DNA of 64,000 bases from Sacculina carcini (taxonomy: Eukaryota; Arthropoda; Thecostraca; Sacculinidae): contig OU696580.1 in NCBI GenBank assembly GCA_916048095.2, positions 310,001 through 374,000 on the forward strand, read 5' to 3'. Position 1 is the first letter of the stretch; each line of letters opens with the position of its first letter. Under the pieces are notes generated by a model. That model was not told where the DNA came from, ran no database searches, and worked only from the letters and a program-made list of their open reading frames with translations. This document shows, one piece after another, positions 14,506 through 61,158 of the stretch. The translations under genes and the position numbers were made by a program.

Positions 14506-17244
14506 TGTTACCTAAGTGTTACCTAAGTGTGCCCTAAGTGTTACCTAAGTGTGCCCTAAGTGTTACCTAAGTGTGCCCTAAGTGTGCCCTAAGTGTTAAC
14601 TAAGTGTTACCTAAGTGTGCCCTAAGTGTTACCTAAGTGTTACCTAAGTGTTACCTAAGTGTGCCCAAAGTGTTACCTAAGTGTGCCCAAAGTGTTACCT
14701 AAGTGTGCCCTAAGTGTTACCTAAGTGTGCCCTAAGTGTTACCTAAGTGTGCCCTAAGTGTGCCCTAAGTGTTACCTAAGTGTGCACTAAGTGTTACCTA
14801 AGTGTGCCCTAAGTGTTACCTAAGTGTGCCCTAAGTGTTACCTAAGTGTGCCCTAAGTGTTACCTAAGTGTGCCCTAAGTGTTACCTAAATGTGACATAA
14901 GTGTTACCTAAGTGTGCCCTAAGTGTTACCTAAGTGTGCACTAAGTGTTACCTAAGTGTTACCTAAGTGTGCCCTAAGTGTTACCTAAGTGTGCCCTAAG
15001 TGTTACCTAAGTGTGCCCTAAGTGTGCCCTAAGTGTTAACTAAGTGTTACCTAAGTGTGCCCTAAGTGTTACCTAAGTGTTACCTAAGTGTTACCTAAGT
15101 GTGCCCAAAGTGTTACCTAAGTGTGCCCAAAGTGTTACCTAAGTGTGCCCTAAGTGTTACCTAAGTGTGCCCTAAGTGTTACCTAAGTGTGCCCTAAGTG
15201 TGCCCTAAGTGTTACCTAAGTGTGCACTAAGTGTTACCTAAGTGTGCCCTAAGTGTTACCTAAGTGTGCCCTAAGTGTTACCTAAGTGTGCCCTAAGTGT
15301 TACCTAAGTGTTACCTAAGTGTTACCTAAGTGTGCCCAAAGTGTTACCTAAGTGTGCCCAAAGTGTTACCTAAGTGTGCCCTAAGTGTTACCTAAGTGTG
15401 CCCTAAGTGTTACCTAAGTGTGCCCTAAGTGTGCCCTAAGTGTTACCTAAGTGTTACCTAAGTGTGCCCTAAGTGTTACCTAAGTGTGCCCTAAGTGTTA
15501 CCTAAGTGTGCCCTAAGTGTTACCTAAGTGTGCACTAAGTGTTACCTAAGTGTTACCTAAGTGTGCCCTAAGTGTTACCTAAGTGTGCCCTAAGTGTTAC
15601 CTAAGTGTGCCCTAAGTGTTACCTAAGTGTGCCCTAAGTGTTACCTAAGTGTGCCCTAAGTGTTACCTAAGTGTACCCTAAGTGTTACCTAAGTGTTACC
15701 TAAGTGTTACCTAAGTGTTACCCAAGTGTTACCGAAGTGTGCCCTAAGTGTTACCTAAGTGTTACCTAAGTGTTACCTAAGTGTTACCTAAGTGTTACCT
15801 AAGTGTTACCTAAGTGTTACCTAAGTGTTACCTAAGTGTGCCCTAAGTGTTACCTAAGTGTGCCCTAAGTGTTACCTAAGTGTGCCCTAAGTGTTACCTA
15901 AGTGTGCACTAAGTGTTACCTAAGTGTTACCTAAGTGTGCCCTAAGTGTTACCTAAGTGTGCCCTAAGTGTTACCTAAGTGTGCCCTAAGTGTTACCTAA
16001 GTGTGCCCTAAGTGTTACCTAAGTGTGCCCTAAGTGTTACCTAAGTGTACCCTAAGTGTTACCTAAGTGTTACCTAAGTGTTACCTAAGTGTTACCCAAG
16101 TGTTACCGAAGTGTGCCCTAAGTGTTACCTAAGTGTTACCTAAGTGTTACCTAAGTGTTACCTAAGTGTTACCTAAGTGTTACCTAAGTGTTACCTAAGT
16201 GTGCCCTAAGTGTTACCTAAGTGTGCCCTAAGTGTTACCTAAGTGTGCCCTAAGTGTTACCTAAGTGTGCACTAAGTGTTACCTAAGTGTTACCTAAGTG
16301 TGCCCTAAGTGTTACCTAAGTGTGCCCTAAGTGTGCCCTAAGTGTTACCTAAGTGTGCACTAAGTGTTACCTAAGTGTGCCCTAAGTGTTACCTAAGTGT
16401 GCCCTAAGTGTTACCTAAGTGTGCCCTAAGTGTTACCTAAGTGTTACCTAAGTGTTACCTAAGTGTGCCCAAAGTGTTACCTAAGTGTGCCCAAAGTGTT
16501 ACCTAAGTGTGCCCTAAGTGTTACCTAAGTGTGCCCTAAGTGTTACCTAAGTGTGCCCTAAGTGTGCCCTAAGTGTTACCTAAGTGTTACCTAAGTGTGC
16601 CCTAAGTGTTACCTAAGTGTGCCCTAAGTGTTACCTAAGTGTGCCCTAAGTGTTACCTAAGTGTGCACTAAGTGTTACCTAAGTGTTACCTAAGTGTGCC
16701 CTAAGTGTTACCTAAGTGTGCCCTAAGTGTTACCTAAGTGTGCCCTAAGTGTTACCTAAGTGTGCCCTAAGTGTTACCTAAGTGTGCCCTAAGTGTTACC
16801 TAAGTGTACCCTAAGTGTTACCTAAGTGTTACCTAAGTGTTACCTAAGTGTTACCCAAGTGTTACCGAAGTGTGCCCTAAGTGTTACCTAAGTGTTACCT
16901 AAGTGTTACCTAAGTGTTACCTAAGTGTTACCTAAGTGTTACCTAAGTGTTACCTAAGTGTGCCCTAAGTGTTACCTAAGTGTGCCCTAAGTGTTACCTA
17001 AGTGTGCCCTAAGTGTTACCTAAGTGTGCACTAAGTGTTACCTAAGTGTTACCTAAGTGTGCCCTAAGTGTTACCTAAGTGTGCCCTAAGTGTTACCTAA
17101 GTGTGCCCTAAGTGTTACCTAAGTGTGCCCTAAGTGTTACCTAAGTGTGCCCTAAGTGTTACCTAAGTGTACCCTAAGTGTTACCTAAGTGTTACCTAAG
17201 TGTTACCTAAGTGTTACCCAAGTGTTACCGAAGTGTGCCCTAAG
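14506..17244. repeat. 2,761-bp tandem duplication, second copy
   Basis: Counterpart of 11,750-14,505 lacking the 22-bp insertion, so 2,739 bp long. CGAAG bodies lie at 15,733, 16,107, 16,866 and 17,229, with intervals 374, 759 and 363 bp identical to those of the first copy. It carries the single-copy state of the GCA, TAA and CAAAG markers in the same order. It ends at the G unit after the last CGAAG, where the sequence passes into a T run. Confidence 0.9.
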
Positions 17245-17301
17245 TGTTACCTAAGTGTTACCTAAGTGTTACCTAAGTGTTACCTAAGTGTTACCTAAGT
17301 G

Positions 17302-18240: not shown

Positions 18241-19282
18241 CTAAGTGTTACCTAAGTGTGCCATAGGTGTTACCTAAGTGTGCCCTAAGTGTTACCTAAG
18301 TGTTACCTAAGTGTGCCCAAAGTGTTACCTAAGTGTGCCCTAAGTGTTACCTAAGTGTGCCCTAAGTGTTACCTAAGTGTGCCCTAAGTGTGCCCTAAGT
18401 GTTACCTAAGTGTGCCCTAAGTGTTACCTAAGTGTTACCTAAGTGTGCCCTAAGTGTTACCTAAGTGTGCCCTAAGTGTTACCTAAATGTGACCTAAGTG
18501 TTACCTAAGTGTGCCCTAAGTGTGCCCTAAGTGTTACCTAAGTGTGCCCTAAGTGTTACCTAAGTGTGCCGTAAGTTTTACCTAAGTGTGCCCTAAGTGT
18601 TACCTAAGTGTTACCTAAGTGTGCCCAAAGTGTTACCTAAGTGTGCCCTAAGTGTTACCTAAGTGTGCCCTAAGTGTTACCTAAGTGTGCCCTAAGTGTG
18701 CCCTAAGTGTTACCTAAGTGTGCCCTAAGTGTTACCTAAGTGTGCCCTAAGTGTTACCTAAGTGTACCCTAAGTGTTACCTAAGTGTTACCTAAGTGTTA
18801 CCTAAGTGTTACCTAAGTGTGCCCTAAGTGTTACCTAAGTGTTACCTAAGTGTGCCCAAAGTGTTACCTAAGTGTGCCCTAAGTGTTACCTAAGTGTGCC
18901 CTAAGTGTTACCTAAGTGTGCCCTAAGTGTGCCCTAAGTGTTACCTAAGTGTGCCCTAAGTGTTACCTAAGTGTTACCTAAGTGTGCCCTAAGTGTTACC
19001 TAAGTGTTCCCTAAGTGTTACCTAAGTGTGACCTAAGTGTTACCTAAGTGTGCCCTAAGTGTGCCCTAAGTGTTACCTAAGTGTTACCTAAGTGTGCCCT
19101 AAGTGTTACCTAAGTGTGCCCTAAGTGTTACCTAAGTGTGCCCTAAGTGTGCCCTAAGTGTTACCTAAGTGTTACCTAAGTGTTACCTAAGTGTTACCTA
19201 AGTGTTACCTAAGTGTTACCTAAGTGTTACCTAAGTGTTACCTAAGTGTTACCTAAGTGTTACCTAAGTGTTACCTAAGTGT

Positions 19283-22200
19283 ACCCTAAGTGTTACCTAA
19301 GTGTTACCTAAGTGTTACCTAAGTGTGCCCTAAGTGTTACCTAAGTGTTACCTAAGTGTTACCTAAGTGTTACCTAAGTGTTACCTAAGTGTTACCTAAG
19401 TGTTACCTAAGTGTTACCTAAGTGTTACCTAAGTGTGCCCTAAGTGTTACCTAAGTGTTACCTAAGTGTTACCCAAGTGTTACCGAAGTGTGCCCTAAGT
19501 GTTACCTAAGTGTTACCTAAGTGTTACCTAAGTGTTACCTAAGTGTTACCTAAGTCTTACCTAAGTGTTACCTAAGTGTTACCTAAGTGTGCCCTAAGTG
19601 TTACCTAAGTGTTACCCAAGTGTTACCTAAGTGTTACCTAAGTGTTACCTAAGTGTGCCCTAAGTGTTACCCAAGTTTTACCTAAGTGTTACCTAAGTGT
19701 TACCTAAGTGTTACCTAAGTGTGCCCTAAGTGTTACCTAAGTGTTACCTAAGTGTGCCCAAAGTGTTACCTAAGTGTGCCCTAAGTGTTACCTAAGTGTG
19801 CCCTAAGTGTTACCTAAGTGTGCCCTAAGTGTGCCCTAAGTGTTACCTAAGTGTGCCCTAAGTGTTACCTAAGTGTTACCTAAGTGTGCCCTAAGTGTTA
19901 CCTAAATGTGACCTAAGTGTTACCTAAGTGTGCCCTAAGTGTGCCCTAAGTGTTACCTAAGTGTTACCTAAGTGTGCCCTAAGTGTTACCTAAGTGTGCC
20001 CTAAGTGTTACCTAAGTGTGCCCTAAGTGTTACCTAAGTGTGCCCTAAGTGTTACCTAAGTGTTACCTAAGTGTTACCTAAGTGATACCTAAGTGTTACC
20101 TAAGTGTTACCTAAGTGTGCCCTAAGTGTTACCTAAGTGTTACCTAAGTGTACCCTAAGTGTTACCTAAGTGTTACCTAAGTGTTACCTAAGTGTGCCCT
20201 AAGTGTTACCTAAGTGTTACCTAAGTGTTACCTAAGTGTTACCTAAGTGTTACCTAAGTGTTACCTAAGTGTTACCTAAGTGTTACCTAAGTGTTACCTA
20301 AGTGTTACCTAAGTGTGCCCTAAGTGTTACCTAAGTGTTACCTAAGTGTTACCTAAGTGTTACCTAAGTGTTACCTAAGTGTGCCCTAAGTGTTACCTAA
20401 GTGTGCCCTAAGTGTTACCTAAGTGTGCCGTAAGTTTTACCTAAGTGTGCCCTAAGTGTTACCTAAGTGTGCCCTAAGTGTTACCTAAGTGTGCCCTAAG
20501 TGTTACCTAAATGTGACCTAAGTGTTACCTAAGTGTGCCCTAAGTGTTACCTAAGTGTGCCCTAAGTGTTACCTAAGTGTGCCCTAAGTGTTACCTAAGT
20601 GTGCCCTAAGTGTTACCTAAGTGTGCCCTAAGTGTTACCTAAGTGTTACCTAAGTGTGCCATAGGTGTTACCTAAGTGTGCCCTAAGTGTTACCTAAGTG
20701 TGCCCTAAGTGTTACCTAAGTGTGCCCTAAGTGTTACCTAAGTGTGCCCTAAGTGTTACCTAAGTGTGCCCTAAGTGTTACCTAAGTGTGCCCTAAGTGT
20801 TACCTAAGTGTGCCCTAAGTGTTACCTAAGTGTTACCTAAGTGTTACCTAAGTGTTACCTAAGTGTTACCTAAGTGTTACCTAAGTGTGCCCTAAGTGTT
20901 ACCTAAGTGTTACCTAAGTGTTACCCAAGTGTTACCTAAGTGTTACCTAAGTGTTACCTAAGTGTTACCTAAGTGTTACCTAAGTGTGCCCTAAGTGTTA
21001 CCTAAGTGTGCCCTAAGTGTTACCTAAGTGTGCACTAAGTGTTACCTAAGTGTTACCTAAGTGTGCCCTAAGTGTTACCTAAGTGTGCCCTAAGTGTTAC
21101 CTAAGTGTGCCCTAAGTGTTACTTAAGTGTGCCCTAAGTGTTACCTAAGTGTGCCCTAAGTGTTACCTAAGTGTTACCTAAGTGTTACCTAAGTGTGCCC
21201 AAAGTGTTACCTAAGTGTGCCCAAAGTGTTACCTAAGTGTGCCCTAAGTGTTACCTAAGTGTGCCCTAAGTGTGCCCTAAGTGTTACCTAAGTGTGCCCT
21301 AAGTGTTACCTAAGTGTTACCTAAGTGTGCCCTAAGTGTTACCTAAGTGTGCCCTAAGTGTTACCTAAATGTGACATAAGTGTTACCTAAGTGTGCCCTA
21401 AGTGTTACCTAAGTGTGCACTAAGTGTTACCTAAGTGTTACCTAAGTGTGCCCTAAGTGTTACCTAAGTGTGCCCTAAGTGTTACCTAAGTGTGCCCTAA
21501 GTGTGCCCTAAGTGTTAACTAAGTGTTACCTAAGTGTGCCCTAAGTGTTACCTAAGTGTTACCTAAGTGTTACCTAAGTGTGCCCAAAGTGTTACCTAAG
21601 TGTGCCCAAAGTGTTACCTAAGTGTGCCCTAAGTGTTACCTAAGTGTGCCCTAAGTGTTACCTAAGTGTGCCCTAAGTGTGCCCTAAGTGTTACCTAAGT
21701 GTGCACTAAGTGTTACCTAAGTGTGCCCTAAGTGTTACCTAAGTGTGCCCTAAGTGTTACCTAAGTGTGCCCTAAGTGTTACCTAAGTGTTACCTAAGTG
21801 TTACCTAAGTGTGCCCAAAGTGTTACCTAAGTGTGCCCAAAGTGTTACCTAAGTGTGCCCTAAGTGTTACCTAAGTGTGCCCTAAGTGTTACCTAAGTGT
21901 GCCCTAAGTGTGCCCTAAGTGTTACCTAAGTGTTACCTAAGTGTGCCCTAAGTGTTACCTAAGTGTGCCCTAAGTGTTACCTAAGTGTGCCCTAAGTGTT
22001 ACCTAAGTGTGCACTAAGTGTTACCTAAGTGTTACCTAAGTGTGCCCTAAGTGTTACCTAAGTGTGCCCTAAGTGTTACCTAAGTGTGCCCTAAGTGTTA
22101 CCTAAGTGTGCCCTAAGTGTTACCTAAGTGTGCCCTAAGTGTTACCTAAGTGTACCCTAAGTGTTACCTAAGTGTTACCTAAGTGTTACCTAAGTGTTAC

Positions 22201-22395
22201 CCAAGTGTTACCGAAGTGTGCCCTAAGTGTTACCTAAGTGTTACCTAAGTGTTACCTAAGTGTTACCTAAGTGTTACCTAAGTGTTACCTAAGTGTTACC
22301 TAAGTGTTACCTAAGTGTTACCTAAGTGTTACCTAAGTGTTACCTAAGTGTTACCTAAGTGTTACCTAAGTGTTACCTAAGTGTTACCTAAGTGT
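19283..22395. repeat. R block copy 1
   Basis: R is a 3.1-kb higher-order repeat starting at an ACC prefix. Ordered markers in this copy: ACC 19,283; CGAAG 19,484; CTAAGTCT (changed base 19,556); CCAAG+TTT 19,671; CTAAATGT+GAC 19,902; CTAAGTGA 20,085; ACC 20,152; GTAAGTTT 20,430; CTAAATGT 20,507; ATAGGTGT 20,661; CCAAG 20,925; TTAAGTGT 21,122; CTAAATGT+GAC+ATAAG 21,365; TAA unit 21,519; ACC 22,154; CGAAG 22,212. It is 3,113 bp, one dimer (22 bp) shorter than the others, the loss lying between 19,671 and 19,902. Its right half (TTAAG onward) repeats the 11,442 region at +9,680. Confidence 0.9.
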
Positions 22396-25300
22396 ACCCT
22401 AAGTGTTACCTAAGTGTTACCTAAGTGTTACCTAAGTGTGCCCTAAGTGTTACCTAAGTGTTACCTAAGTGTTACCTAAGTGTTACCTAAGTGTTACCTA
22501 AGTGTTACCTAAGTGTTACCTAAGTGTTACCTAAGTGTTACCTAAGTGTGCCCTAAGTGTTACCTAAGTGTTACCTAAGTGTTACCCAAGTGTTACCGAA
22601 GTGTGCCCTAAGTGTTACCTAAGTGTTACCTAAGTGTTACCTAAGTGTTACCTAAGTGTTACCTAAGTCTTACCTAAGTGTTACCTAAGTGTTACCTAAG
22701 TGTGCCCTAAGTGTTACCTAAGTGTTACCCAAGTGTTACCTAAGTGTTACCTAAGTGTTACCTAAGTGTGCCCTAAGTGTTACCCAAGTTTTACCTAAGT
22801 GTTACCTAAGTGTTACCTAAGTGTTACCTAAGTGTGCCCTAAGTGTTACCTAAGTGTTACCTAAGTGTGCCCAAAGTGTTACCTAAGTGTGCCCTAAGTG
22901 TTACCTAAGTGTGCCCTAAGTGTTACCTAAGTGTGCCCTAAGTGTGCCCTAAGTGTTACCTAAGTGTGCCCTAAGTGTTACCTAAGTGTTACCTAAGTGT
23001 GCCCTAAGTGTTACCTAAGTGTGCCCTAAGTGTTACCTAAATGTGACCTAAGTGTTACCTAAGTGTGCCCTAAGTGTGCCCTAAGTGTTACCTAAGTGTT
23101 ACCTAAGTGTGCCCTAAGTGTTACCTAAGTGTGCCCTAAGTGTTACCTAAGTGTGCCCTAAGTGTTACCTAAGTGTGCCCTAAGTGTTACCTAAGTGTTA
23201 CCTAAGTGTTACCTAAGTGATACCTAAGTGTTACCTAAGTGTTACCTAAGTGTGCCCTAAGTGTTACCTAAGTGTTACCTAAGTGTACCCTAAGTGTTAC
23301 CTAAGTGTTACCTAAGTGTTACCTAAGTGTGCCCTAAGTGTTACCTAAGTGTTACCTAAGTGTTACCTAAGTGTTACCTAAGTGTTACCTAAGTGTTACC
23401 TAAGTGTTACCTAAGTGTTACCTAAGTGTTACCTAAGTGTTACCTAAGTGTGCCCTAAGTGTTACCTAAGTGTTACCTAAGTGTTACCTAAGTGTTACCT
23501 AAGTGTTACCTAAGTGTGCCCTAAGTGTTACCTAAGTGTGCCCTAAGTGTTACCTAAGTGTGCCGTAAGTTTTACCTAAGTGTGCCCTAAGTGTTACCTA
23601 AGTGTGCCCTAAGTGTTACCTAAGTGTGCCCTAAGTGTTACCTAAATGTGACCTAAGTGTTACCTAAGTGTGCCCTAAGTGTTACCTAAGTGTGCCCTAA
23701 GTGTTACCTAAGTGTGCCCTAAGTGTTACCTAAGTGTGCCCTAAGTGTTACCTAAGTGTGCCCTAAGTGTTACCTAAGTGTTACCTAAGTGTGCCATAGG
23801 TGTTACCTAAGTGTGCCCTAAGTGTTACCTAAGTGTGCCCTAAGTGTTACCTAAGTGTGCCCTAAGTGTTACCTAAGTGTGCCCTAAGTGTTACCTAAGT
23901 GTGCCCTAAGTGTTACCTAAGTGTGCCCTAAGTGTTACCTAAGTGTGCCCTAAGTGTTACCTAAGTGTTACCTAAGTGTTACCTAAGTGTTACCTAAGTG
24001 TTACCTAAGTGTTACCTAAGTGTGCCCTAAGTGTTACCTAAGTGTTACCTAAGTGTTACCCAAGTGTTACCTAAGTGTTACCTAAGTGTTACCTAAGTGT
24101 TACCTAAGTGTTACCTAAGTGTGCCCTAAGTGTTACCTAAGTGTGCCCTAAGTGTTACCTAAGTGTGCACTAAGTGTTACCTAAGTGTTACCTAAGTGTG
24201 CCCTAAGTGTTACCTAAGTGTGCCCTAAGTGTTACCTAAGTGTGCCCTAAGTGTTACTTAAGTGTGCCCTAAGTGTTACCTAAGTGTGCCCTAAGTGTTA
24301 CCTAAGTGTTACCTAAGTGTTACCTAAGTGTGCCCAAAGTGTTACCTAAGTGTGCCCAAAGTGTTACCTAAGTGTGCCCTAAGTGTTACCTAAGTGTGCC
24401 CTAAGTGTGCCCTAAGTGTTACCTAAGTGTGCCCTAAGTGTTACCTAAGTGTTACCTAAGTGTGCCCTAAGTGTTACCTAAGTGTGCCCTAAGTGTTACC
24501 TAAATGTGACATAAGTGTTACCTAAGTGTGCCCTAAGTGTTACCTAAGTGTGCACTAAGTGTTACCTAAGTGTTACCTAAGTGTGCCCTAAGTGTTACCT
24601 AAGTGTGCCCTAAGTGTTACCTAAGTGTGCCCTAAGTGTGCCCTAAGTGTTAACTAAGTGTTACCTAAGTGTGCCCTAAGTGTTACCTAAGTGTTACCTA
24701 AGTGTTACCTAAGTGTGCCCAAAGTGTTACCTAAGTGTGCCCAAAGTGTTACCTAAGTGTGCCCTAAGTGTTACCTAAGTGTGCCCTAAGTGTTACCTAA
24801 GTGTGCCCTAAGTGTGCCCTAAGTGTTACCTAAGTGTGCACTAAGTGTTACCTAAGTGTGCCCTAAGTGTTACCTAAGTGTGCCCTAAGTGTTACCTAAG
24901 TGTGCCCTAAGTGTTACCTAAGTGTTACCTAAGTGTTACCTAAGTGTGCCCAAAGTGTTACCTAAGTGTGCCCAAAGTGTTACCTAAGTGTGCCCTAAGT
25001 GTTACCTAAGTGTGCCCTAAGTGTTACCTAAGTGTGCCCTAAGTGTGCCCTAAGTGTTACCTAAGTGTTACCTAAGTGTGCCCTAAGTGTTACCTAAGTG
25101 TGCCCTAAGTGTTACCTAAGTGTGCCCTAAGTGTTACCTAAGTGTGCACTAAGTGTTACCTAAGTGTTACCTAAGTGTGCCCTAAGTGTTACCTAAGTGT
25201 GCCCTAAGTGTTACCTAAGTGTGCCCTAAGTGTTACCTAAGTGTGCCCTAAGTGTTACCTAAGTGTGCCCTAAGTGTTACCTAAGTGTACCCTAAGTGTT

Positions 25301-25530
25301 ACCTAAGTGTTACCTAAGTGTTACCTAAGTGTTACCCAAGTGTTACCGAAGTGTGCCCTAAGTGTTACCTAAGTGTTACCTAAGTGTTACCTAAGTGTTA
25401 CCTAAGTGTTACCTAAGTGTTACCTAAGTGTTACCTAAGTGTTACCTAAGTGTGCCCTAAGTGTTACCTAAGTGTGCCCTAAGTGTTACCTAAGTGTGCC
25501 CTAAGTGATACCTAAGTGTGCACTAAGTGT
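22396..25530. repeat. R block copy 2
   Basis: Matches R1 marker by marker at +3,113 before and +3,135 bp after the R1 dimer loss: CTAAGTCT 22,669; CCAAG+TTT 22,784; CTAAATGT 23,037; CTAAGTGA 23,220; ACC 23,287; GTAAGTTT 23,565; ATAGG 23,796; CCAAG 24,060; TTAAG 24,257; CTAAATGT+GAC+ATAAG 24,500; TAA unit 24,654; ACC 25,289; CGAAG 25,347. The long T run just upstream (15 T units between 22,223 and 22,399) sits at the R1/R2 joint. Confidence 0.92.
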
Positions 25531-26751
25531 TACCTAAGTGTTACCTAAGTGTGCCCTAAGTGTTACCTAAGTGTGCCCTAAGTGTTACCTAAGTGTTACC
25601 TAAGTGTTACCTAAGTGTTACCTAAGTGTTACCTAAGTGTTACCTAAGTGTGCCCTAAGTGTTACCTAAGTGTGCCCTAAGTGTTACCTAAGTGTGCCCT
25701 AAGTGATACCTAAGTGTGCACTAAGTGTTACCTAAGTGTTACCTAAGTGTGCCCTAAGTGTTACCTAAGTGTGCCCTAAGTGTTACCTAAGTGTGCCCTA
25801 AGTGTTACCTAAGTGTGCCCTAAGTGTTACCTAAGTGTGCCGTAAGTTTTACCTAAGTGTGCCCTAAGTGTTACCTAAGTGTGCCCTAAGTGTTACCTAA
25901 GTGTGCCCTAAGTGTTACCTAAATGTGACCTAAGTGTTACCTAAGTGTGCCCTAAGTGTTACCTAAGTGTGCCCTAAGTGTTACCTAAGTGTGCCCTAAG
26001 TGTTACCTAAGTGTGCCCTAAGTGTTACCTAAGTGTTACCTAAGTGTGCCCTAAGTGTTACCTAAGTGTGCCCTAAGTGTTACCTAAGTGTGCCCTAAGT
26101 GTTACCTAAGTGTACCCTAAGTGTTACCTAAGTGTTACCTAAGTGTTACCTAAGTGTTACCCAAGTGTTACCGAAGTGTGCCCTAAGTGTTACCTAAGTG
26201 TTACCCAAGTGTTACCGAAGTGTGCCCTAAGTGTTACCTAAGTGTTACCTAAGTGTTACCTAAGTGTTACCTAAGTGTTACCTAAGTGTTACCTAAGTGT
26301 TACCTAAGTGTTACCTAAGTGTTACCTAAGTGTGCCCTAAGTGTTACCTAAGTGTGCCCTAAGTGTTACCTAAGTGTGCCCTAAGTGATACCTAAGTGTG
26401 CACTAAGTGTTACCTAAGTGTTACCTAAGTGTGCCCTAAGTGTTACCTAAGTGTGCCCTAAGTGTTACCTAAGTGTGCCCTAAGTGTTACCTAAGTGTGC
26501 CCTAAGTGTTACCTAAGTGTGCCCTAAGTGTTACCTAAGTGTACCCTAAGTGTTACCTAAGTGTTACCTAAGTGTTACCTAAGTGTTACCCAAGTGTTAC
26601 CGAAGTGTGCCCTAAGTGTTACCTAAGTGTTACCTAAGTGTTACCTAAGTGTTACCTAAGTGTTACCTAAGTGTTACCTAAGTGTTACCTAAGTGTTACC
26701 TAAGTGTGCCCTAAGTGTTACCTAAGTGTTACCTAAGTGTTACCTAAGTGT
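25531..26751. repeat. Tail after R2
   Basis: Carries CTAAGTGA bodies (25,508 just before it, one near 25,700, another at 26,388), GTAAGTTT at 25,842, CTAAATGT at 25,919, and a double CCAAG-CGAAG with CGAAG second bases at 26,173 and 26,217, then 26,602. The same markers follow R5 at exactly +13,046 bp (38,888; 38,965; 39,219; 39,263; 39,434; 39,648). After R4 only the first part is present, at +8,514. Confidence 0.86.
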
Positions 26752-27774
26752 GCCATAGGTGTTACCTAAGTGTGCCCTAAGTGTTACCTAAGTGTTACCT
26801 AAGTGTGCCCAAAGTGTTACCTAAGTGTGCCCTAAGTGTTACCTAAGTGTGCCCTAAGTGTTACCTAAGTGTGCCCTAAGTGTGCCCTAAGTGTTACCTA
26901 AGTGTGCCCTAAGTGTTACCTAAGTGTTACCTAAGTGTGCCCTAAGTGTTACCTAAGTGTGCCCTAAGTGTTACCTAAATGTGACCTAAGTGTTACCTAA
27001 GTGTGCCCTAAGTGTGCCCTAAGTGTTACCTAAGTGTGCCCTAAGTGTTACCTAAGTGTGCCGTAAGTTTTACCTAAGTGTGCCCTAAGTGTTACCTAAG
27101 TGTTACCTAAGTGTGCCCAAAGTGTTACCTAAGTGTGCCCTAAGTGTTACCTAAGTGTGCCCTAAGTGTTACCTAAGTGTGCCCTAAGTGTGCCCTAAGT
27201 GTTACCTAAGTGTGCCCTAAGTGTTACCTAAGTGTGCCCTAAGTGTTACCTAAGTGTACCCTAAGTGTTACCTAAGTGTTACCTAAGTGTTACCTAAGTG
27301 TTACCTAAGTGTGCCCTAAGTGTTACCTAAGTGTTACCTAAGTGTGCCCAAAGTGTTACCTAAGTGTGCCCTAAGTGTTACCTAAGTGTGCCCTAAGTGT
27401 TACCTAAGTGTGCCCTAAGTGTGCCCTAAGTGTTACCTAAGTGTGCCCTAAGTGTTACCTAAGTGTTACCTAAGTGTGCCCTAAGTGTTACCTAAGTGTT
27501 CCCTAAGTGTTACCTAAGTGTGACCTAAGTGTTACCTAAGTGTGCCCTAAGTGTGCCCTAAGTGTTACCTAAGTGTTACCTAAGTGTGCCCTAAGTGTTA
27601 CCTAAGTGTGCCCTAAGTGTTACCTAAGTGTGCCCTAAGTGTGCCCTAAGTGTTACCTAAGTGTTACCTAAGTGTTACCTAAGTGTTACCTAAGTGTTAC
27701 CTAAGTGTTACCTAAGTGTTACCTAAGTGTTACCTAAGTGTTACCTAAGTGTTACCTAAGTGTTACCTAAGTGT

Positions 27775-30700
27775 ACCCTAAGTGTTACCTAAGTGTTACC
27801 TAAGTGTTACCTAAGTGTGCCCTAAGTGTTACCTAAGTGTTACCTAAGTGTTACCTAAGTGTTACCTAAGTGTTACCTAAGTGTTACCTAAGTGTTACCT
27901 AAGTGTTACCTAAGTGTTACCTAAGTGTGCCCTAAGTGTTACCTAAGTGTTACCTAAGTGTTACCCAAGTGTTACCGAAGTGTGCCCTAAGTGTTACCTA
28001 AGTGTTACCTAAGTGTTACCTAAGTGTTACCTAAGTGTTACCTAAGTCTTACCTAAGTGTTACCTAAGTGTTACCTAAGTGTGCCCTAAGTGTTACCTAA
28101 GTGTTACCCAAGTGTTACCTAAGTGTTACCTAAGTGTTACCTAAGTGTGCCCTAAGTGTTACCCAAGTTTTACCTAAGTGTTACCTAAGTGTTACCTAAG
28201 TGTTACCTAAGTGTGCCCTAAGTGTTACCTAAGTGTTACCTAAGTGTGCCCAAAGTGTTACCTAAGTGTGCCCTAAGTGTTACCTAAGTGTGCCCTAAGT
28301 GTTACCTAAGTGTGCCCTAAGTGTGCCCTAAGTGTTACCTAAGTGTGCCCTAAGTGTTACCTAAGTGTTACCTAAGTGTGCCCTAAGTGTTACCTAAGTG
28401 TGCCCTAAGTGTTACCTAAATGTGACCTAAGTGTTACCTAAGTGTGCCCTAAGTGTGCCCTAAGTGTTACCTAAGTGTTACCTAAGTGTGCCCTAAGTGT
28501 TACCTAAGTGTGCCCTAAGTGTTACCTAAGTGTGCCCTAAGTGTTACCTAAGTGTGCCCTAAGTGTTACCTAAGTGTTACCTAAGTGTTACCTAAGTGAT
28601 ACCTAAGTGTTACCTAAGTGTTACCTAAGTGTGCCCTAAGTGTTACCTAAGTGTTACCTAAGTGTACCCTAAGTGTTACCTAAGTGTTACCTAAGTGTTA
28701 CCTAAGTGTGCCCTAAGTGTTACCTAAGTGTTACCTAAGTGTTACCTAAGTGTTACCTAAGTGTTACCTAAGTGTTACCTAAGTGTTACCTAAGTGTTAC
28801 CTAAGTGTTACCTAAGTGTTACCTAAGTGTGCCCTAAGTGTTACCTAAGTGTTACCTAAGTGTTACCTAAGTGTTACCTAAGTGTTACCTAAGTGTGCCC
28901 TAAGTGTTACCTAAGTGTGCCCTAAGTGTTACCTAAGTGTGCCGTAAGTTTTACCTAAGTGTGCCCTAAGTGTTACCTAAGTGTGCCCTAAGTGTTACCT
29001 AAGTGTGCCCTAAGTGTTACCTAAATGTGACCTAAGTGTTACCTAAGTGTGCCCTAAGTGTTACCTAAGTGTGCCCTAAGTGTTACCTAAGTGTGCCCTA
29101 AGTGTTACCTAAGTGTGCCCTAAGTGTTACCTAAGTGTGCCCTAAGTGTTACCTAAGTGTTACCTAAGTGTGCCATAGGTGTTACCTAAGTGTGCCCTAA
29201 GTGTTACCTAAGTGTGCCCTAAGTGTTACCTAAGTGTGCCCTAAGTGTTACCTAAGTGTGCCCTAAGTGTTACCTAAGTGTGCCCTAAGTGTTACCTAAG
29301 TGTGCCCTAAGTGTTACCTAAGTGTGCCCTAAGTGTTACCTAAGTGTTACCTAAGTGTTACCTAAGTGTTACCTAAGTGTTACCTAAGTGTTACCTAAGT
29401 GTGCCCTAAGTGTTACCTAAGTGTTACCTAAGTGTTACCCAAGTGTTACCTAAGTGTTACCTAAGTGTTACCTAAGTGTTACCTAAGTGTTACCTAAGTG
29501 TGCCCTAAGTGTTACCTAAGTGTGCCCTAAGTGTTACCTAAGTGTGCACTAAGTGTTACCTAAGTGTTACCTAAGTGTGCCCTAAGTGTTACCTAAGTGT
29601 GCCCTAAGTGTTACCTAAGTGTGCCCTAAGTGTTACTTAAGTGTGCCCTAAGTGTTACCTAAGTGTGCCCTAAGTGTTACCTAAGTGTTACCTAAGTGTT
29701 ACCTAAGTGTGCCCAAAGTGTTACCTAAGTGTGCCCAAAGTGTTACCTAAGTGTGCCCTAAGTGTTACCTAAGTGTGCCCTAAGTGTGCCCTAAGTGTTA
29801 CCTAAGTGTGCCCTAAGTGTTACCTAAGTGTTACCTAAGTGTGCCCTAAGTGTTACCTAAGTGTGCCCTAAGTGTTACCTAAATGTGACATAAGTGTTAC
29901 CTAAGTGTGCCCTAAGTGTTACCTAAGTGTGCACTAAGTGTTACCTAAGTGTTACCTAAGTGTGCCCTAAGTGTTACCTAAGTGTGCCCTAAGTGTTACC
30001 TAAGTGTGCCCTAAGTGTGCCCTAAGTGTTAACTAAGTGTTACCTAAGTGTGCCCTAAGTGTTACCTAAGTGTTACCTAAGTGTTACCTAAGTGTGCCCA
30101 AAGTGTTACCTAAGTGTGCCCAAAGTGTTACCTAAGTGTGCCCTAAGTGTTACCTAAGTGTGCCCTAAGTGTTACCTAAGTGTGCCCTAAGTGTGCCCTA
30201 AGTGTTACCTAAGTGTGCACTAAGTGTTACCTAAGTGTGCCCTAAGTGTTACCTAAGTGTGCCCTAAGTGTTACCTAAGTGTGCCCTAAGTGTTACCTAA
30301 GTGTTACCTAAGTGTTACCTAAGTGTGCCCAAAGTGTTACCTAAGTGTGCCCAAAGTGTTACCTAAGTGTGCCCTAAGTGTTACCTAAGTGTGCCCTAAG
30401 TGTTACCTAAGTGTGCCCTAAGTGTGCCCTAAGTGTTACCTAAGTGTTACCTAAGTGTGCCCTAAGTGTTACCTAAGTGTGCCCTAAGTGTTACCTAAGT
30501 GTGCCCTAAGTGTTACCTAAGTGTGCACTAAGTGTTACCTAAGTGTTACCTAAGTGTGCCCTAAGTGTTACCTAAGTGTGCCCTAAGTGTTACCTAAGTG
30601 TGCCCTAAGTGTTACCTAAGTGTGCCCTAAGTGTTACCTAAGTGTGCCCTAAGTGTTACCTAAGTGTACCCTAAGTGTTACCTAAGTGTTACCTAAGTGT

Positions 30701-30909
30701 TACCTAAGTGTTACCCAAGTGTTACCGAAGTGTGCCCTAAGTGTTACCTAAGTGTTACCTAAGTGTTACCTAAGTGTTACCTAAGTGTTACCTAAGTGTT
30801 ACCTAAGTGTTACCTAAGTGTTACCTAAGTGTTACCTAAGTGTTACCTAAGTGTTACCTAAGTGTTACCTAAGTGTTACCTAAGTGTTACCTAAGTGTTA
30901 CCTAAGTGT
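27775..30909. repeat. R block copy 3
   Basis: Matches R2 at +5,379 bp: ACC 27,775, CGAAG second base 27,977, CTAAGTCT 28,048, ATAGG 29,175, CTAAATGT+GAC+ATAAG 29,879, ACC 30,668, CGAAG second base 30,727. It has the full 3,135-bp length with the dimer that R1 lacks. Confidence 0.91.
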
Positions 30910-33900
30910 ACCCTAAGTGTTACCTAAGTGTTACCTAAGTGTTACCTAAGTGTGCCCTAAGTGTTACCTAAGTGTTACCTAAGTGTTACCTAAGTGTTAC
31001 CTAAGTGTTACCTAAGTGTTACCTAAGTGTTACCTAAGTGTTACCTAAGTGTTACCTAAGTGTGCCCTAAGTGTTACCTAAGTGTTACCTAAGTGTTACC
31101 CAAGTGTTACCGAAGTGTGCCCTAAGTGTTACCTAAGTGTTACCTAAGTGTTACCTAAGTGTTACCTAAGTGTTACCTAAGTCTTACCTAAGTGTTACCT
31201 AAGTGTTACCTAAGTGTGCCCTAAGTGTTACCTAAGTGTTACCCAAGTGTTACCTAAGTGTTACCTAAGTGTTACCTAAGTGTGCCCTAAGTGTTACCCA
31301 AGTTTTACCTAAGTGTTACCTAAGTGTTACCTAAGTGTTACCTAAGTGTGCCCTAAGTGTTACCTAAGTGTTACCTAAGTGTGCCCTAAGTGTTACCTAA
31401 GTGTGCCCTAAGTGTTACCTAAGTGTGCCCTAAGTGTTACCTAAGTGTGCCCTAAGTGTGCCCTAAGTGTTACCTAAGTGTGCCCTAAGTGTTACCTAAG
31501 TGTTACCTAAGTGTGCCCTAAGTGTTACCTAAGTGTGCCCTAAGTGTTACCTAAATGTGACCTAAGTGTTACCTAAGTGTGCCCTAAGTGTGCCCTAAGT
31601 GTTACCTAAGTGTTACCTAAGTGTGCCCTAAGTGTTACCTAAGTGTGCCCTAAGTGTTACCTAAGTGTGCCCTAAGTGTTACCTAAGTGTGCCCTAAGTG
31701 TTACCTAAGTGTTACCTAAGTGTTACCTAAGTGATACCTAAGTGTTACCTAAGTGTTACCTAAGTGTGCCCTAAGTGTTACCTAAGTGTTACCTAAGTGT
31801 ACCCTAAGTGTTACCTAAGTGTTACCTAAGTGTTACCTAAGTGTGCCCTAAGTGTTACCTAAGTGTTACCTAAGTGTTACCTAAGTGTTACCTAAGTGTT
31901 ACCTAAGTGTTACCTAAGTGTTACCTAAGTGTTACCTAAGTGTTACCTAAGTGTTACCTAAGTGTGCCCTAAGTGTTACCTAAGTGTTACCTAAGTGTTA
32001 CCTAAGTGTTACCTAAGTGTTACCTAAGTGTGCCCTAAGTGTTACCTAAGTGTGCCCTAAGTGTTACCTAAGTGTGCCGTAAGTTTTACCTAAGTGTGCC
32101 CTAAGTGTTACCTAAGTGTGCCCTAAGTGTTACCTAAGTGTGCCCTAAGTGTTACCTAAATGTGACCTAAGTGTTACCTAAGTGTGCCCTAAGTGTTACC
32201 AAGGTGTGCCCTAAGTGTTACCTAAGTGTGCCCTAAGTGTTACCTAAGTGTGCCCTAAGTGTTACCTAAGTGTGCCCTAAGTGTTACCTAAGTGTTACCT
32301 AAGTGTGCCATAGGTGTTACCTAAGTGTGCCCTAAGTGTTACCTAAGTGTGCCCTAAGTGTTACCTAAGTGTGCCCTAAGTGTTACCTAAGTGTGCCCTA
32401 AGTGTTACCTAAGTGTGCCCTAAGTGTTACCTAAGTGTGCCCTAAGTGTTACCTAAGTGTGCCCTAAGTGTTACCTAAGTGTTACCTAAGTGTTACCTAA
32501 GTGTTACCTAAGTGTTACCTAAGTGTTACCTAAGTGTGCCCTAAGTGTTACCTAAGTGTTACCTAAGTGTTACCCAAGTGTTACCTAAGTGTTACCTAAG
32601 TGTTACCTAAGTGTTACCTAAGTGTTACCTAAGTGTGCCCTAAGTGTTACCTAAGTGTGCCCTAAGTGTTACCTAAGTGTGCACTAAGTGTTACCTAAGT
32701 GTTACCTAAGTGTGCCCTAAGTGTTACCTAAGTGTGCCCTAAGTGTTACCTAAGTGTGCCCTAAGTGTTACTTAAGTGTGCCCTAAGTGTTACCTAAGTG
32801 TGCCCTAAGTGTTACCTAAGTGTTACCTAAGTGTTACCTAAGTGTGCCCAAAGTGTTACCTAAGTGTGCCCAAAGTGTTACCTAAGTGTGCCCTAAGTGT
32901 TACCTAAGTGTGCCCTAAGTGTGCCCTAAGTGTTACCTAAGTGTGCCCTAAGTGTTACCTAAGTGTTACCTAAGTGTGCCCTAAGTGTTACCTAAGTGTG
33001 CCCTAAGTGTTACCTAAATGTGACATAAGTGTTACCTAAGTGTGCCCTAAGTGTTACCTAAGTGTGCACTAAGTGTTACCTAAGTGTTACCTAAGTGTGC
33101 CCTAAGTGTTACCTAAGTGTGCCCTAAGTGTTACCTAAGTGTGCCCTAAGTGTGCCCTAAGTGTTAACTAAGTGTTACCTAAGTGTGCCCTAAGTGTTAC
33201 CTAAGTGTTACCTAAGTGTTACCTAAGTGTGCCCAAAGTGTTACCTAAGTGTGCCCAAAGTGTTACCTAAGTGTGCCCTAAGTGTTACCTAAGTGTGCCC
33301 TAAGTGTTACCTAAGTGTGCCCTAAGTGTGCCCTAAGTGTTACCTAAGTGTGCACTAAGTGTTACCTAAGTGTGCCCTAAGTGTTACCTAAGTGTGCCCT
33401 AAGTGTTACCTAAGTGTGCCCTAAGTGTTACCTAAGTGTTACCTAAGTGTTACCTAAGTGTGCCCAAAGTGTTACCTAAGTGTGCCCAAAGTGTTACCTA
33501 AGTGTGCCCTAAGTGTTACCTAAGTGTGCCCTAAGTGTTACCTAAGTGTGCCCTAAGTGTGCCCTAAGTGTTACCTAAGTGTTACCTAAGTGTGCCCTAA
33601 GTGTTACCTAAGTGTGCCCTAAGTGTTACCTAAGTGTGCCCTAAGTGTTACCTAAGTGTGCACTAAGTGTTACCTAAGTGTTACCTAAGTGTGCCCTAAG
33701 TGTTACCTAAGTGTGCCCTAAGTGTTACCTAAGTGTGCCCTAAGTGTTACCTAAGTGTGCCCTAAGTGTTACCTAAGTGTGCCCTAAGTGTTACCTAAGT
33801 GTACCCTAAGTGTTACCTAAGTGTTACCTAAGTGTTACCTAAGTGTTACCCAAGTGTTACCGAAGTGTGCCCTAAGTGTTACCTAAGTGTTACCTAAGTG

Positions 33901-34410
33901 TTACCTAAGTGTTACCTAAGTGTTACCTAAGTGTTACCTAAGTGTTACCTAAGTGTTACCTAAGTGTGCCCTAAGTGTTACCTAAGTGTGCCCTAAGTGT
34001 TACCTAAGTGTGCCCTAAGTGATACCTAAGTGTGCACTAAGTGTTACCTAAGTGTTACCTAAGTGTGCCCTAAGTGTTACCTAAGTGTGCCCTAAGTGTT
34101 ACCTAAGTGTTACCTAAGTGTTACCTAAGTGTTACCTAAGTGTTACCTAAGTGTTACCTAAGTGTGCCCTAAGTGTTACCTAAGTGTGCCCTAAGTGTTA
34201 CCTAAGTGTGCCCTAAGTGATACCTAAGTGTGCACTAAGTGTTACCTAAGTGTTACCTAAGTGTGCCCTAAGTGTTACCTAAGTGTGCCCTAAGTGTTAC
34301 CTAAGTGTGCCCTAAGTGTTACCTAAGTGTGCCCTAAGTGTTACCTAAGTGTGCCGTAAGTTTTACCTAAGTGTGCCCTAAGTGTTACCTAAGTGTGCCC
34401 TAAGTGTTAC
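29879..34410. repeat. 4,532-bp (412-unit) tandem duplication, first copy
   Basis: Starts inside R3 at CTAAATGT+GAC+ATAAG and runs through R4 into its tail. Markers recur at exactly +4,532: ACC 30,910 with 35,442; CTAAGTCT 31,183 with 35,715; ATAGG 32,310 with 36,842; CTAAATGT 33,014 with 37,546; CTAAGTGA 34,022 with 38,554; GTAAGTTT 34,356 with 38,888. Differences seen by eye: CTAAG at 31,386 where the partner 35,918 is CAAAG, and CAAGGTGT at 32,200 where the partner is normal. Both changes are private to this copy. Confidence 0.92.
30910..34044. repeat. R block copy 4
   Basis: Matches R3 at +3,135 bp: ACC 30,910, CTAAGTCT 31,183, ATAGG 32,310, ACC 33,803, with the same order between. At 31,386 it has CTAAG where R1, R2, R3 and R5 have CAAAG; reversion to consensus in one copy suggests conversion by a neighbouring unit. 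It also has the only CAAGGTGT body seen (32,200). Confidence 0.9.
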
Positions 34411-37400
34411 CTAAATGTGACATAAGTGTTACCTAAGTGTGCCCTAAGTGTTACCTAAGTGTGCACTAAGTGTTACCTAAGTGTTACCTAAGTGTGCCCT
34501 AAGTGTTACCTAAGTGTGCCCTAAGTGTTACCTAAGTGTGCCCTAAGTGTGCCCTAAGTGTTAACTAAGTGTTACCTAAGTGTGCCCTAAGTGTTACCTA
34601 AGTGTTACCTAAGTGTTACCTAAGTGTGCCCAAAGTGTTACCTAAGTGTGCCCAAAGTGTTACCTAAGTGTGCCCTAAGTGTTACCTAAGTGTGCCCTAA
34701 GTGTTACCTAAGTGTGCCCTAAGTGTGCCCTAAGTGTTACCTAAGTGTGCACTAAGTGTTACCTAAGTGTGCCCTAAGTGTTACCTAAGTGTGCCCTAAG
34801 TGTTACCTAAGTGTGCCCTAAGTGTTACCTAAGTGTTACCTAAGTGTTACCTAAGTGTGCCCAAAGTGTTACCTAAGTGTGCCCAAAGTGTTACCTAAGT
34901 GTGCCCTAAGTGTTACCTAAGTGTGCCCTAAGTGTTACCTAAGTGTGCCCTAAGTGTGCCCTAAGTGTTACCTAAGTGTTACCTAAGTGTGCCCTAAGTG
35001 TTACCTAAGTGTGCCCTAAGTGTTACCTAAGTGTGCCCTAAGTGTTACCTAAGTGTGCACTAAGTGTTACCTAAGTGTTACCTAAGTGTGCCCTAAGTGT
35101 TACCTAAGTGTGCCCTAAGTGTTACCTAAGTGTGCCCTAAGTGTTACCTAAGTGTGCCCTAAGTGTTACCTAAGTGTGCCCTAAGTGTTACCTAAGTGTA
35201 CCCTAAGTGTTACCTAAGTGTTACCTAAGTGTTACCTAAGTGTTACCCAAGTGTTACCGAAGTGTGCCCTAAGTGTTACCTAAGTGTTACCTAAGTGTTA
35301 CCTAAGTGTTACCTAAGTGTTACCTAAGTGTTACCTAAGTGTTACCTAAGTGTTACCTAAGTGTTACCTAAGTGTTACCTAAGTGTTACCTAAGTGTTAC
35401 CTAAGTGTTACCTAAGTGTTACCTAAGTGTTACCTAAGTGTACCCTAAGTGTTACCTAAGTGTTACCTAAGTGTTACCTAAGTGTGCCCTAAGTGTTACC
35501 TAAGTGTTACCTAAGTGTTACCTAAGTGTTACCTAAGTGTTACCTAAGTGTTACCTAAGTGTTACCTAAGTGTTACCTAAGTGTTACCTAAGTGTGCCCT
35601 AAGTGTTACCTAAGTGTTACCTAAGTGTTACCCAAGTGTTACCGAAGTGTGCCCTAAGTGTTACCTAAGTGTTACCTAAGTGTTACCTAAGTGTTACCTA
35701 AGTGTTACCTAAGTCTTACCTAAGTGTTACCTAAGTGTTACCTAAGTGTGCCCTAAGTGTTACCTAAGTGTTACCCAAGTGTTACCTAAGTGTTACCTAA
35801 GTGTTACCTAAGTGTGCCCTAAGTGTTACCCAAGTTTTACCTAAGTGTTACCTAAGTGTTACCTAAGTGTTACCTAAGTGTGCCCTAAGTGTTACCTAAG
35901 TGTTACCTAAGTGTGCCCAAAGTGTTACCTAAGTGTGCCCTAAGTGTTACCTAAGTGTGCCCTAAGTGTTACCTAAGTGTGCCCTAAGTGTGCCCTAAGT
36001 GTTACCTAAGTGTGCCCTAAGTGTTACCTAAGTGTTACCTAAGTGTGCCCTAAGTGTTACCTAAGTGTGCCCTAAGTGTTACCTAAATGTGACCTAAGTG
36101 TTACCTAAGTGTGCCCTAAGTGTGCCCTAAGTGTTACCTAAGTGTTACCTAAGTGTGCCCTAAGTGTTACCTAAGTGTGCCCTAAGTGTTACCTAAGTGT
36201 GCCCTAAGTGTTACCTAAGTGTGCCCTAAGTGTTACCTAAGTGTTACCTAAGTGTTACCTAAGTGATACCTAAGTGTTACCTAAGTGTTACCTAAGTGTG
36301 CCCTAAGTGTTACCTAAGTGTTACCTAAGTGTACCCTAAGTGTTACCTAAGTGTTACCTAAGTGTTACCTAAGTGTGCCCTAAGTGTTACCTAAGTGTTA
36401 CCTAAGTGTTACCTAAGTGTTACCTAAGTGTTACCTAAGTGTTACCTAAGTGTTACCTAAGTGTTACCTAAGTGTTACCTAAGTGTTACCTAAGTGTGCC
36501 CTAAGTGTTACCTAAGTGTTACCTAAGTGTTACCTAAGTGTTACCTAAGTGTTACCTAAGTGTGCCCTAAGTGTTACCTAAGTGTGCCCTAAGTGTTACC
36601 TAAGTGTGCCGTAAGTTTTACCTAAGTGTGCCCTAAGTGTTACCTAAGTGTGCCCTAAGTGTTACCTAAGTGTGCCCTAAGTGTTACCTAAATGTGACCT
36701 AAGTGTTACCTAAGTGTGCCCTAAGTGTTACCTAAGTGTGCCCTAAGTGTTACCTAAGTGTGCCCTAAGTGTTACCTAAGTGTGCCCTAAGTGTTACCTA
36801 AGTGTGCCCTAAGTGTTACCTAAGTGTTACCTAAGTGTGCCATAGGTGTTACCTAAGTGTGCCCTAAGTGTTACCTAAGTGTGCCCTAAGTGTTACCTAA
36901 GTGTGCCCTAAGTGTTACCTAAGTGTGCCCTAAGTGTTACCTAAGTGTGCCCTAAGTGTTACCTAAGTGTGCCCTAAGTGTTACCTAAGTGTGCCCTAAG
37001 TGTTACCTAAGTGTTACCTAAGTGTTACCTAAGTGTTACCTAAGTGTTACCTAAGTGTTACCTAAGTGTGCCCTAAGTGTTACCTAAGTGTTACCTAAGT
37101 GTTACCCAAGTGTTACCTAAGTGTTACCTAAGTGTTACCTAAGTGTTACCTAAGTGTTACCTAAGTGTGCCCTAAGTGTTACCTAAGTGTGCCCTAAGTG
37201 TTACCTAAGTGTGCACTAAGTGTTACCTAAGTGTTACCTAAGTGTGCCCTAAGTGTTACCTAAGTGTGCCCTAAGTGTTACCTAAGTGTGCCCTAAGTGT
37301 TACTTAAGTGTGCCCTAAGTGTTACCTAAGTGTGCCCTAAGTGTTACCTAAGTGTTACCTAAGTGTTACCTAAGTGTGCCCAAAGTGTTACCTAAGTGTG

Positions 37401-38942
37401 CCCAAAGTGTTACCTAAGTGTGCCCTAAGTGTTACCTAAGTGTGCCCTAAGTGTGCCCTAAGTGTTACCTAAGTGTGCCCTAAGTGTTACCTAAGTGTTA
37501 CCTAAGTGTGCCCTAAGTGTTACCTAAGTGTGCCCTAAGTGTTACCTAAATGTGACATAAGTGTTACCTAAGTGTGCCCTAAGTGTTACCTAAGTGTGCA
37601 CTAAGTGTTACCTAAGTGTTACCTAAGTGTGCCCTAAGTGTTACCTAAGTGTGCCCTAAGTGTTACCTAAGTGTGCCCTAAGTGTGCCCTAAGTGTTAAC
37701 TAAGTGTTACCTAAGTGTGCCCTAAGTGTTACCTAAGTGTTACCTAAGTGTTACCTAAGTGTGCCCAAAGTGTTACCTAAGTGTGCCCAAAGTGTTACCT
37801 AAGTGTGCCCTAAGTGTTACCTAAGTGTGCCCTAAGTGTTACCTAAGTGTGCCCTAAGTGTGCCCTAAGTGTTACCTAAGTGTGCACTAAGTGTTACCTA
37901 AGTGTGCCCTAAGTGTTACCTAAGTGTGCCCTAAGTGTTACCTAAGTGTGCCCTAAGTGTTACCTAAGTGTTACCTAAGTGTTACCTAAGTGTGCCCAAA
38001 GTGTTACCTAAGTGTGCCCAAAGTGTTACCTAAGTGTGCCCTAAGTGTTACCTAAGTGTGCCCTAAGTGTTACCTAAGTGTGCCCTAAGTGTGCCCTAAG
38101 TGTTACCTAAGTGTTACCTAAGTGTGCCCTAAGTGTTACCTAAGTGTGCCCTAAGTGTTACCTAAGTGTGCCCTAAGTGTTACCTAAGTGTGCACTAAGT
38201 GTTACCTAAGTGTTACCTAAGTGTGCCCTAAGTGTTACCTAAGTGTGCCCTAAGTGTTACCTAAGTGTGCCCTAAGTGTTACCTAAGTGTGCCCTAAGTG
38301 TTACCTAAGTGTGCCCTAAGTGTTACCTAAGTGTACCCTAAGTGTTACCTAAGTGTTACCTAAGTGTTACCTAAGTGTTACCCAAGTGTTACCGAAGTGT
38401 GCCCTAAGTGTTACCTAAGTGTTACCTAAGTGTTACCTAAGTGTTACCTAAGTGTTACCTAAGTGTTACCTAAGTGTTACCTAAGTGTTACCTAAGTGTG
38501 CCCTAAGTGTTACCTAAGTGTGCCCTAAGTGTTACCTAAGTGTGCCCTAAGTGATACCTAAGTGTGCACTAAGTGTTACCTAAGTGTTACCTAAGTGTGC
38601 CCTAAGTGTTACCTAAGTGTGCCCTAAGTGTTACCTAAGTGTTACCTAAGTGTTACCTAAGTGTTACCTAAGTGTTACCTAAGTGTTACCTAAGTGTGCC
38701 CTAAGTGTTACCTAAGTGTGCCCTAAGTGTTACCTAAGTGTGCCCTAAGTGATACCTAAGTGTGCACTAAGTGTTACCTAAGTGTTACCTAAGTGTGCCC
38801 TAAGTGTTACCTAAGTGTGCCCTAAGTGTTACCTAAGTGTGCCCTAAGTGTTACCTAAGTGTGCCCTAAGTGTTACCTAAGTGTGCCGTAAGTTTTACCT
38901 AAGTGTGCCCTAAGTGTTACCTAAGTGTGCCCTAAGTGTTAC
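34411..38942. repeat. 4,532-bp tandem duplication, second copy
   Basis: Begins at CTAAATGT+GAC+ATAAG (34,411), only 55 bp after GTAAGTTT at 34,356. In the uninterrupted tail (25,842 and 38,888) the next CTAAATGT is 77 bp away and is followed by GAC+CTAAG instead. The switch from GAC+CTAAG to GAC+ATAAG and the loss of two units mark the joint, which lies in a shared T G T G run. The next CGAAG is 848 bp on, as in the first copy. Confidence 0.91.
35442..38576. repeat. R block copy 5
   Basis: Generated by the 4,532-bp duplication: ACC 35,442, CTAAGTCT 35,715, CAAAG 35,918, ATAGG 36,842, CTAAATGT+GAC+ATAAG 37,546, TAA unit near 37,700, CTAAGTGA 38,554. This is the last copy with the GAC+ATAAG and TAA-prefix markers; neither appears further right in the window. 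Confidence 0.9.
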
Positions 38943-39859
38943 CTAAGTGTGCCCTAAGTGTTACCTAAATGTGACCTAAGTGTTACCTAAGTGTGCCCTA
39001 AGTGTTACCTAAGTGTGCCCTAAGTGTTACCTAAGTGTGCCCTAAGTGTTACCTAAGTGTGCCCTAAGTGTTACCTAAGTGTTACCTAAGTGTGCCCTAA
39101 GTGTTACCTAAGTGTGCCCTAAGTGTTACCTAAGTGTGCCCTAAGTGTTACCTAAGTGTACCCTAAGTGTTACCTAAGTGTTACCTAAGTGTTACCTAAG
39201 TGTTACCCAAGTGTTACCGAAGTGTGCCCTAAGTGTTACCTAAGTGTTACCCAAGTGTTACCGAAGTGTGCCCTAAGTGTTACCTAAGTGTTACCTAAGT
39301 GTTACCTAAGTGTTACCTAAGTGTTACCTAAGTGTTACCTAAGTGTTACCTAAGTGTTACCTAAGTGTTACCTAAGTGTGCCCTAAGTGTTACCTAAGTG
39401 TGCCCTAAGTGTTACCTAAGTGTGCCCTAAGTGATACCTAAGTGTGCACTAAGTGTTACCTAAGTGTTACCTAAGTGTGCCCTAAGTGTTACCTAAGTGT
39501 GCCCTAAGTGTTACCTAAGTGTGCCCTAAGTGTTACCTAAGTGTGCCCTAAGTGTTACCTAAGTGTGCCCTAAGTGTTACCTAAGTGTACCCTAAGTGTT
39601 ACCTAAGTGTTACCTAAGTGTTACCTAAGTGTTACCCAAGTGTTACCGAAGTGTGCCCTAAGTGTTACCTAAGTGTTACCTAAGTGTTACCTAAGTGTTA
39701 CCTAAGTGTTACCTAAGTGTTACCTAAGTGTTACCTAAGTGTTACCTAAGTGTGCCCTAAGTGTTACCTAAGTGTTACCTAAGTGTTACCTAAGTGTTAC
39801 CTAAGTGTTACCTAAGTGTTACCTAAGTGTTACCTAAGTGTTACCTAAGTGTTACCTAA

Positions 39860-61060: not shown

Positions 61061-61158
61061 TAAGTTTTACCTAAGTGTGCCCTAAGTGTTACCTAAGTGT
61101 TACCTAAGTGTGCCCAAAGTGTTACCTAAGTGTGCCCTAAGTGTTACCTAAGTGTGCC

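Follow-up and report, generated by a model that had tools for sequence, protein, structure and literature searches.

Several described systems bear on the tandem array analysed here. The unequal crossover model of Smith (1976), in the form in which passages of two later papers present it (PMC8997354, PMC4022460), deals with tandem units that undergo in-register duplications, so that variants come to lie in ever larger blocks. Human Satellites 2 and 3 are built from a short simple unit whose variants are gathered into larger repeat blocks, as outlined in a part of PMC4022460, and the higher-order repeats of alpha-satellite are described in sections of PMC8997354 as nested block duplications of near-identical sequence. 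Whether satellite arrays grow by unequal exchange or by break-induced replication is debated in those same sections (PMC8997354). In arrays that are old or uniform, single duplication events are difficult to make out. The locus described here shares the listed features of all three systems, the nested and near-identical blocks being recognized from sequence alone, and it differs from each of them: its unit of 11 bp is unlike the CATTC of Human Satellites 2 and 3 and is far shorter than the alpha-satellite monomer of about 171 bp, and, as compared to the Smith model, its nest sits in an array that has no fixed higher-order period and whose duplicated blocks range from 28 to 774 units. The process is thus of a known kind and is unusually legible, in an 11-bp satellite for which no report emerged, judged by titles and abstract openings among the openly licensed papers listed, either from letter searches (for the T unit in 14, and for the G unit in 2, of the 22 forms that strand and rotation allow) or from a phrase search for 11-bp satellites, repeats and monomers. 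Rare unit variants serve here as tags, so that the letters themselves disclose three events together with their junctions and likely order.

The window (the whole stretch of DNA analysed, 64,000 nt in length) is returned by TRF as one row with 93% matches and 0% indels, i.e. as one short unit repeated head to tail over a long array, with no foreign sequence within it:

1-64,000, unstranded: host array, an uninterrupted 11-bp satellite (single TRF row; 5,817 units of 33 types)

Units were delimited by cutting at the TAAGTG anchor, and the two commonest, TAAGTGTTACC (n = 3,267) and TAAGTGTGCCC (n = 1,781), make up 5,048 of the 5,817. Neither TTAGG nor ACACTTAG, which would mark inverted units, occurs on the plus strand of the window. 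The array is non-coding: a search of six frames with ATG, GTG and TTG starts (table 11) yields only three open reading frames of at least 30 aa, each of 32 aa, a length that rules out a coding function, and no Rfam family is matched at gathering scores in 18,001-40,000, so that an RNA family is ruled out for that interval. A phage, viral or prokaryotic origin was likewise discarded, exact 22-base matches being absent from viral contigs and from prokaryote genome contigs of at least 3,000 bases; a phage search was negative too, though it has no weight in this since simple repeats are filtered out of it. From these results and the kind of array, the source is probably eukaryotic.

Between 18 and 40 kb the array carries a nest of tandem duplications. 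An observation of such a nest in a preliminary description is confirmed by marker spacings, unit-by-unit comparison and a rebuild of the sequence; the nest is real, and small errors in coordinates required correction. The marker CTAAGTCT occurs five times on the plus strand of the window, at 19,550, 22,663, 28,042, 31,177 and 35,709; the four intervals given previously (3,113, 5,379, 3,135 and 4,532 bp, all multiples of 11) are exact, and the positions given with them were 6 bp too high. ATAGG, of which there are 15 on the plus strand of the window, had been placed 1,105 bp after the first marker and 1,127 bp after each of the others; the measured distances are 1,111 bp once and 1,133 bp four times, so that the 22-bp difference between them stands. 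Of the six repeats named previously, R1-R6, five are present as full copies; a full R6 is absent, and the nest holds in addition a 90-unit R-end fragment. The parts of the nest are:

18,242-26,744, unstranded: block A (lead-in, R1, R2 and tail), the earlier-placed of the two copies in the 8.5-kb duplication, from unit-by-unit comparison
26,734-34,411, unstranded: block B (lead-in, R3, R4 and the beginning of the tail), the second of these copies, which C interrupts, from unit-by-unit comparison and the rebuild
34,368-39,790, unstranded: block C, a 412-unit copy of B 29,836-34,367 together with the displaced original end of B, from its lags to A and B
19,155-22,311, unstranded: R1, 287 units, with a 22-bp deletion near 19,859-19,870, from base-level and unit comparison
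22,268-25,446, unstranded: R2, 289 units, with no differences to R3 and R5 over 3,179 bp
27,647-30,825, unstranded: R3, 289 units, from base-level comparison
30,782-33,960, unstranded: R4, 289 units, with two changed units, from base-level and unit comparison
35,314-38,492, unstranded: R5, 289 units, from base-level comparison
34,368-35,357, unstranded: R-end fragment, 90 units, left by the 412-unit duplication that starts inside R3, from exact matches elsewhere

The only difference of R1 from the identical R2, R3 and R5 is its 22 missing bp. R4 differs from the same three by 3 bases; its two changed units, which are private to it, lie at 31,387 (AAAGTGTTACC to TAAGTGTTACC) and at 32,201 (TAAGTGTGCCC to AAGGTGTGCCC, i.e. 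TAAG to AAGG). The R-end fragment is identical to 24,457-25,446, 32,971-33,960 and 37,503-38,492. A stretch of 120 units at 1,522-2,841 (1,320 bp) recurs exactly within each of the five R copies, at a distance of 19-35 kb, and this exact match breaks off at both ends.

At the level of blocks, A matches B at a lag of 772 units over 151 exact units and, past the R1 deletion, at a lag of 774 units with 2 changed units; B matches C at a lag of 412 units over 416 units with 2 mismatches; and A matches C at a lag of 1,186 units over 493 units with none. The last of these is the longest exact repeated run in the window (5,423 bp) and is far beyond chance, since no repeated run was longer than 63 units in 10 order-8 Markov simulations, and none exceeded 52 units in 50 simulations of orders 0, 1, 2, 4 and 6. 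These controls are conservative because, being trained on the array itself, they retain part of its repeats. The idea that one duplication of 1,186 units had produced the A/C match was rejected, given that exact identity spans only those 493 units. Every lag in the nest is an integral multiple of the 11-bp unit (285, 774 and 412 units for the duplicated blocks) and the exact runs end sharply. As defined by the ends of these runs, the junctions are overlaps of four exact units between R1 and R2 (22,268-22,311), of one unit between A and B (26,734-26,744) and of four units, or 44 bp, between B and C (34,368-34,411).

A short series of events suffices to rebuild this structure. Starting from a collapsed block of 490 units (83 + 289 + 118), in-register tandem duplications of 285, 774 and then 412 units yield 1,961 units as against the 1,959 observed (18,242-39,790), at an edit distance of 4 units that consists of the two-unit deletion in R1 and the two changed units in R4. 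Blocks, near-identity, junctions and the three-event rebuild are all shown, and together with the flanks the rebuild supports the history proposed previously, namely a doubling of R, then of the A block, then of 4,532 bp within B. The R copies were compared by a distance table and by their flanks instead of by a tree: because R2, R3 and R5 have the same sequence, no site in the R copies is informative, so that neither the tree that had been predicted nor the one that would have contradicted it can appear, and flanks and position decide the pairing. In the flanks beyond the maximal R repeat, 83 units upstream and 51 downstream are common to R1 and R3, and 218 upstream and 41 downstream to R2 and R4. 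R5 shares 86 upstream units with both R2 and R4 and, downstream, 118 units with R2 and 41 with R4, and the other six pairs, R1/R2 and R3/R4 among them, have no flanking units in common. The pairing of R1 with R3 and of R2 with R4 is thereby borne out by flanks and junctions. If only tandem duplications are allowed, we infer that the order R, 774-unit block, 412 units is forced, since the R pair, joined in the same way, is present in A as well as in B, and C interrupts B and not A. To call this history unambiguous, as had been done, is nevertheless too strong, because an exchange between homologues reverses the last two steps with the same number of events. In that version one homologue would have acquired the 412-unit duplication at the outset, and A would have been brought beside the longer form by exchange with a homologue that lacked the duplication. 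The perfect A/C identity, set beside the two unit differences between B and C, might seem to speak for it; those differences are private to R4 and so have no bearing on order. Such a history needs two distinct alleles, which the tandem-only order does not, and we consider it improbable. It is a variant of the history only, compatible with either of the mechanisms considered below.

The proposed mechanism is that the non-coding 11-bp array turns over through in-register copying and deletion of whole blocks of units, such that R (285 units) would have been doubled, then a 774-unit block with the R pair, and lastly a stretch of 412 units that starts within R3 and runs beyond R4. We hold with moderate confidence that the nest arose by unequal exchange in the sense of Smith's unequal crossover, i.e. 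homology-driven exchange between sister chromatids or homologues that would have paired out of register. Homology-guided copying predicts lags of whole units, and those of the nest fit it. That confidence goes no higher because of doubts raised in portions of a review (PMC8997354), where long-read structures are said to have cast doubt on the unequal exchange model, complex higher-order repeats to be harder to account for by it, and microhomology-mediated end joining to have been argued instead for maize centromeres. Break-induced replication, in which a broken fork re-invades an out-of-register sister unit and recopies a block, would generate nested duplications without reciprocal deletions, and it is a candidate to be taken seriously, if one that we would not expect to prevail. 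In-register junctions and nested blocks agree with it; Rice, as reported in the pertinent part of the same review (PMC8997354), concluded that it could create complex nested higher-order repeats; and recent events cluster mildly beyond the range of the simulations, which a local hotspot of broken forks would fit. However, inverted units (TTAGG, ACACTTAG) and foreign sequence are absent, and no feature of one sequence tells it from unequal exchange: junctions lying in identities of four, one and four units fit both equally well. The block history is independent of the choice. If reads confirm the copies and more individuals of the species are sequenced, a tally of gains and of reciprocal losses would tell the two models apart. 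The copies, we infer, are present in the living chromosome. An assembler might instead have repeated near-identical array segments, through a graph loop or by placing two haplotypes in tandem, and identities as long as those of R2, R3 and R5 (3,179 bp) and of A and C (5,423 bp) are what such an error could leave. The TAAG to AAGG change in R4 resembles the paired loss and gain of a base that a consensus error may give, and could be one. Yet the copies differ, by the 22-bp deletion in R1 and the two changed units in R4, and smaller, older duplications of like style are found in the rest of the window, so that an artefact of assembly is an unlikely source of the nest.

Most of the array was built by block copying, and the nest is its youngest layer. 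Exact repeats of at least 50 units take in 79% of the units, and the string of units breaks into 271 phrases as compared to 487-493 for three order-6 Markov strings. A scan of lags from 8 to 1,599 units called 10 gapless tandem duplications in the window, of 28-412 units, the list being confined to duplications unbroken by indels and so passing over A/B; eight of the 10 lie outside the nest (28-124 units). A fixed higher-order repeat, in which one multi-unit period recurs many times, was rejected as a description of the array, as the periods vary from 28 to 412 units and a single one, of 34 units, reaches three copies. A broken tandem duplication of 249-251 units relates 11,741-14,523 to 14,502-17,262, and both of its copies hold a 33-unit duplication (at 13,831 and 16,570), which makes this a second small nest. 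Unit type i is followed by type h in 98% of its 55 occurrences, and the 19 rare unit types with at least five copies are found in 1-12 distinct contexts, taken as three units on either side. The confinement of most rare types to few contexts suggests for each of them a single origin, or a few, followed by copying.

How strong a nest ordinary block copying would leave was gauged with a model of tandem duplications log-uniform in size (1-800 units, a range chosen and not fitted), and matched deletions, in which new variants appear at a preset per-event rate. Among 20 runs of a first set (four rates at the 800-unit limit and two at 300) no single rate fits all of the observed statistics, and the closest are 0.03-0.1 new variants per event at the 800-unit limit. 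A rate of 0.03 gives 8-15 unit types and a rate of 0.1 gives 16-35, against the 33 observed; the latter rate also gives a homozygosity of 0.19-0.43, mostly too low against the observed 0.41, and 291-443 phrases against 271. In a second set of 60 runs at rates of 0.03, 0.06 and 0.1, 24 resemble the window in homozygosity and number of phrases, and these have 6-28 unit types versus 33. Lags with exact runs of at least 200 units number seven in the window, a figure attained in none of the 24 resembling runs (three had six) and exceeded in six of the 60, all at a rate of 0.03, at which six runs gave nearly uniform arrays (homozygosity 0.94-1.00). This duplication and deletion model comes near the observed statistics, though the nest is a little stronger than its simulated range, and the mild excess is weak evidence for a clustering of recent events, because the nest was picked for looking striking. 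It is close to the expected trace of ordinary block copying in satellite arrays. On the same modelling one may tentatively propose, as a rather doubtful reading, that turnover is almost purely by block copying, with about one new variant per 10-30 duplications (a model-dependent figure), and that the latest events are clustered at one spot beyond what uniform exchange would give. If that were true, the locus would be a natural record in which satellite duplications could be read singly, put in order and counted, and it would allow a local hotspot, whether of exchange or of fork breakage, to be located.

Other features of the array stand apart from the nest. The exact 50-unit repeat cover is 0.49 in the last 8 kb as compared to 0.61-1.00 in the seven other bins, and the last part of the window, 60,000-64,000, holds 8 of the 16 units of types seen at most three times; the array may here be nearing its edge, or may pass into a domain that is older and less homogenised. 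On the minus strand the unit contains TTAGG, and the G type contains TTAGGG, which are the letters of the arthropod and vertebrate telomere repeats, respectively, a resemblance that may be due to chance. The only 10-bp units in the window, four in number (40,990; 42,639; 49,557; 50,436), all show the same one-base loss (TAAGTGTGCC) within one shared 33-base context, and are probably a single deletion copied to four places.
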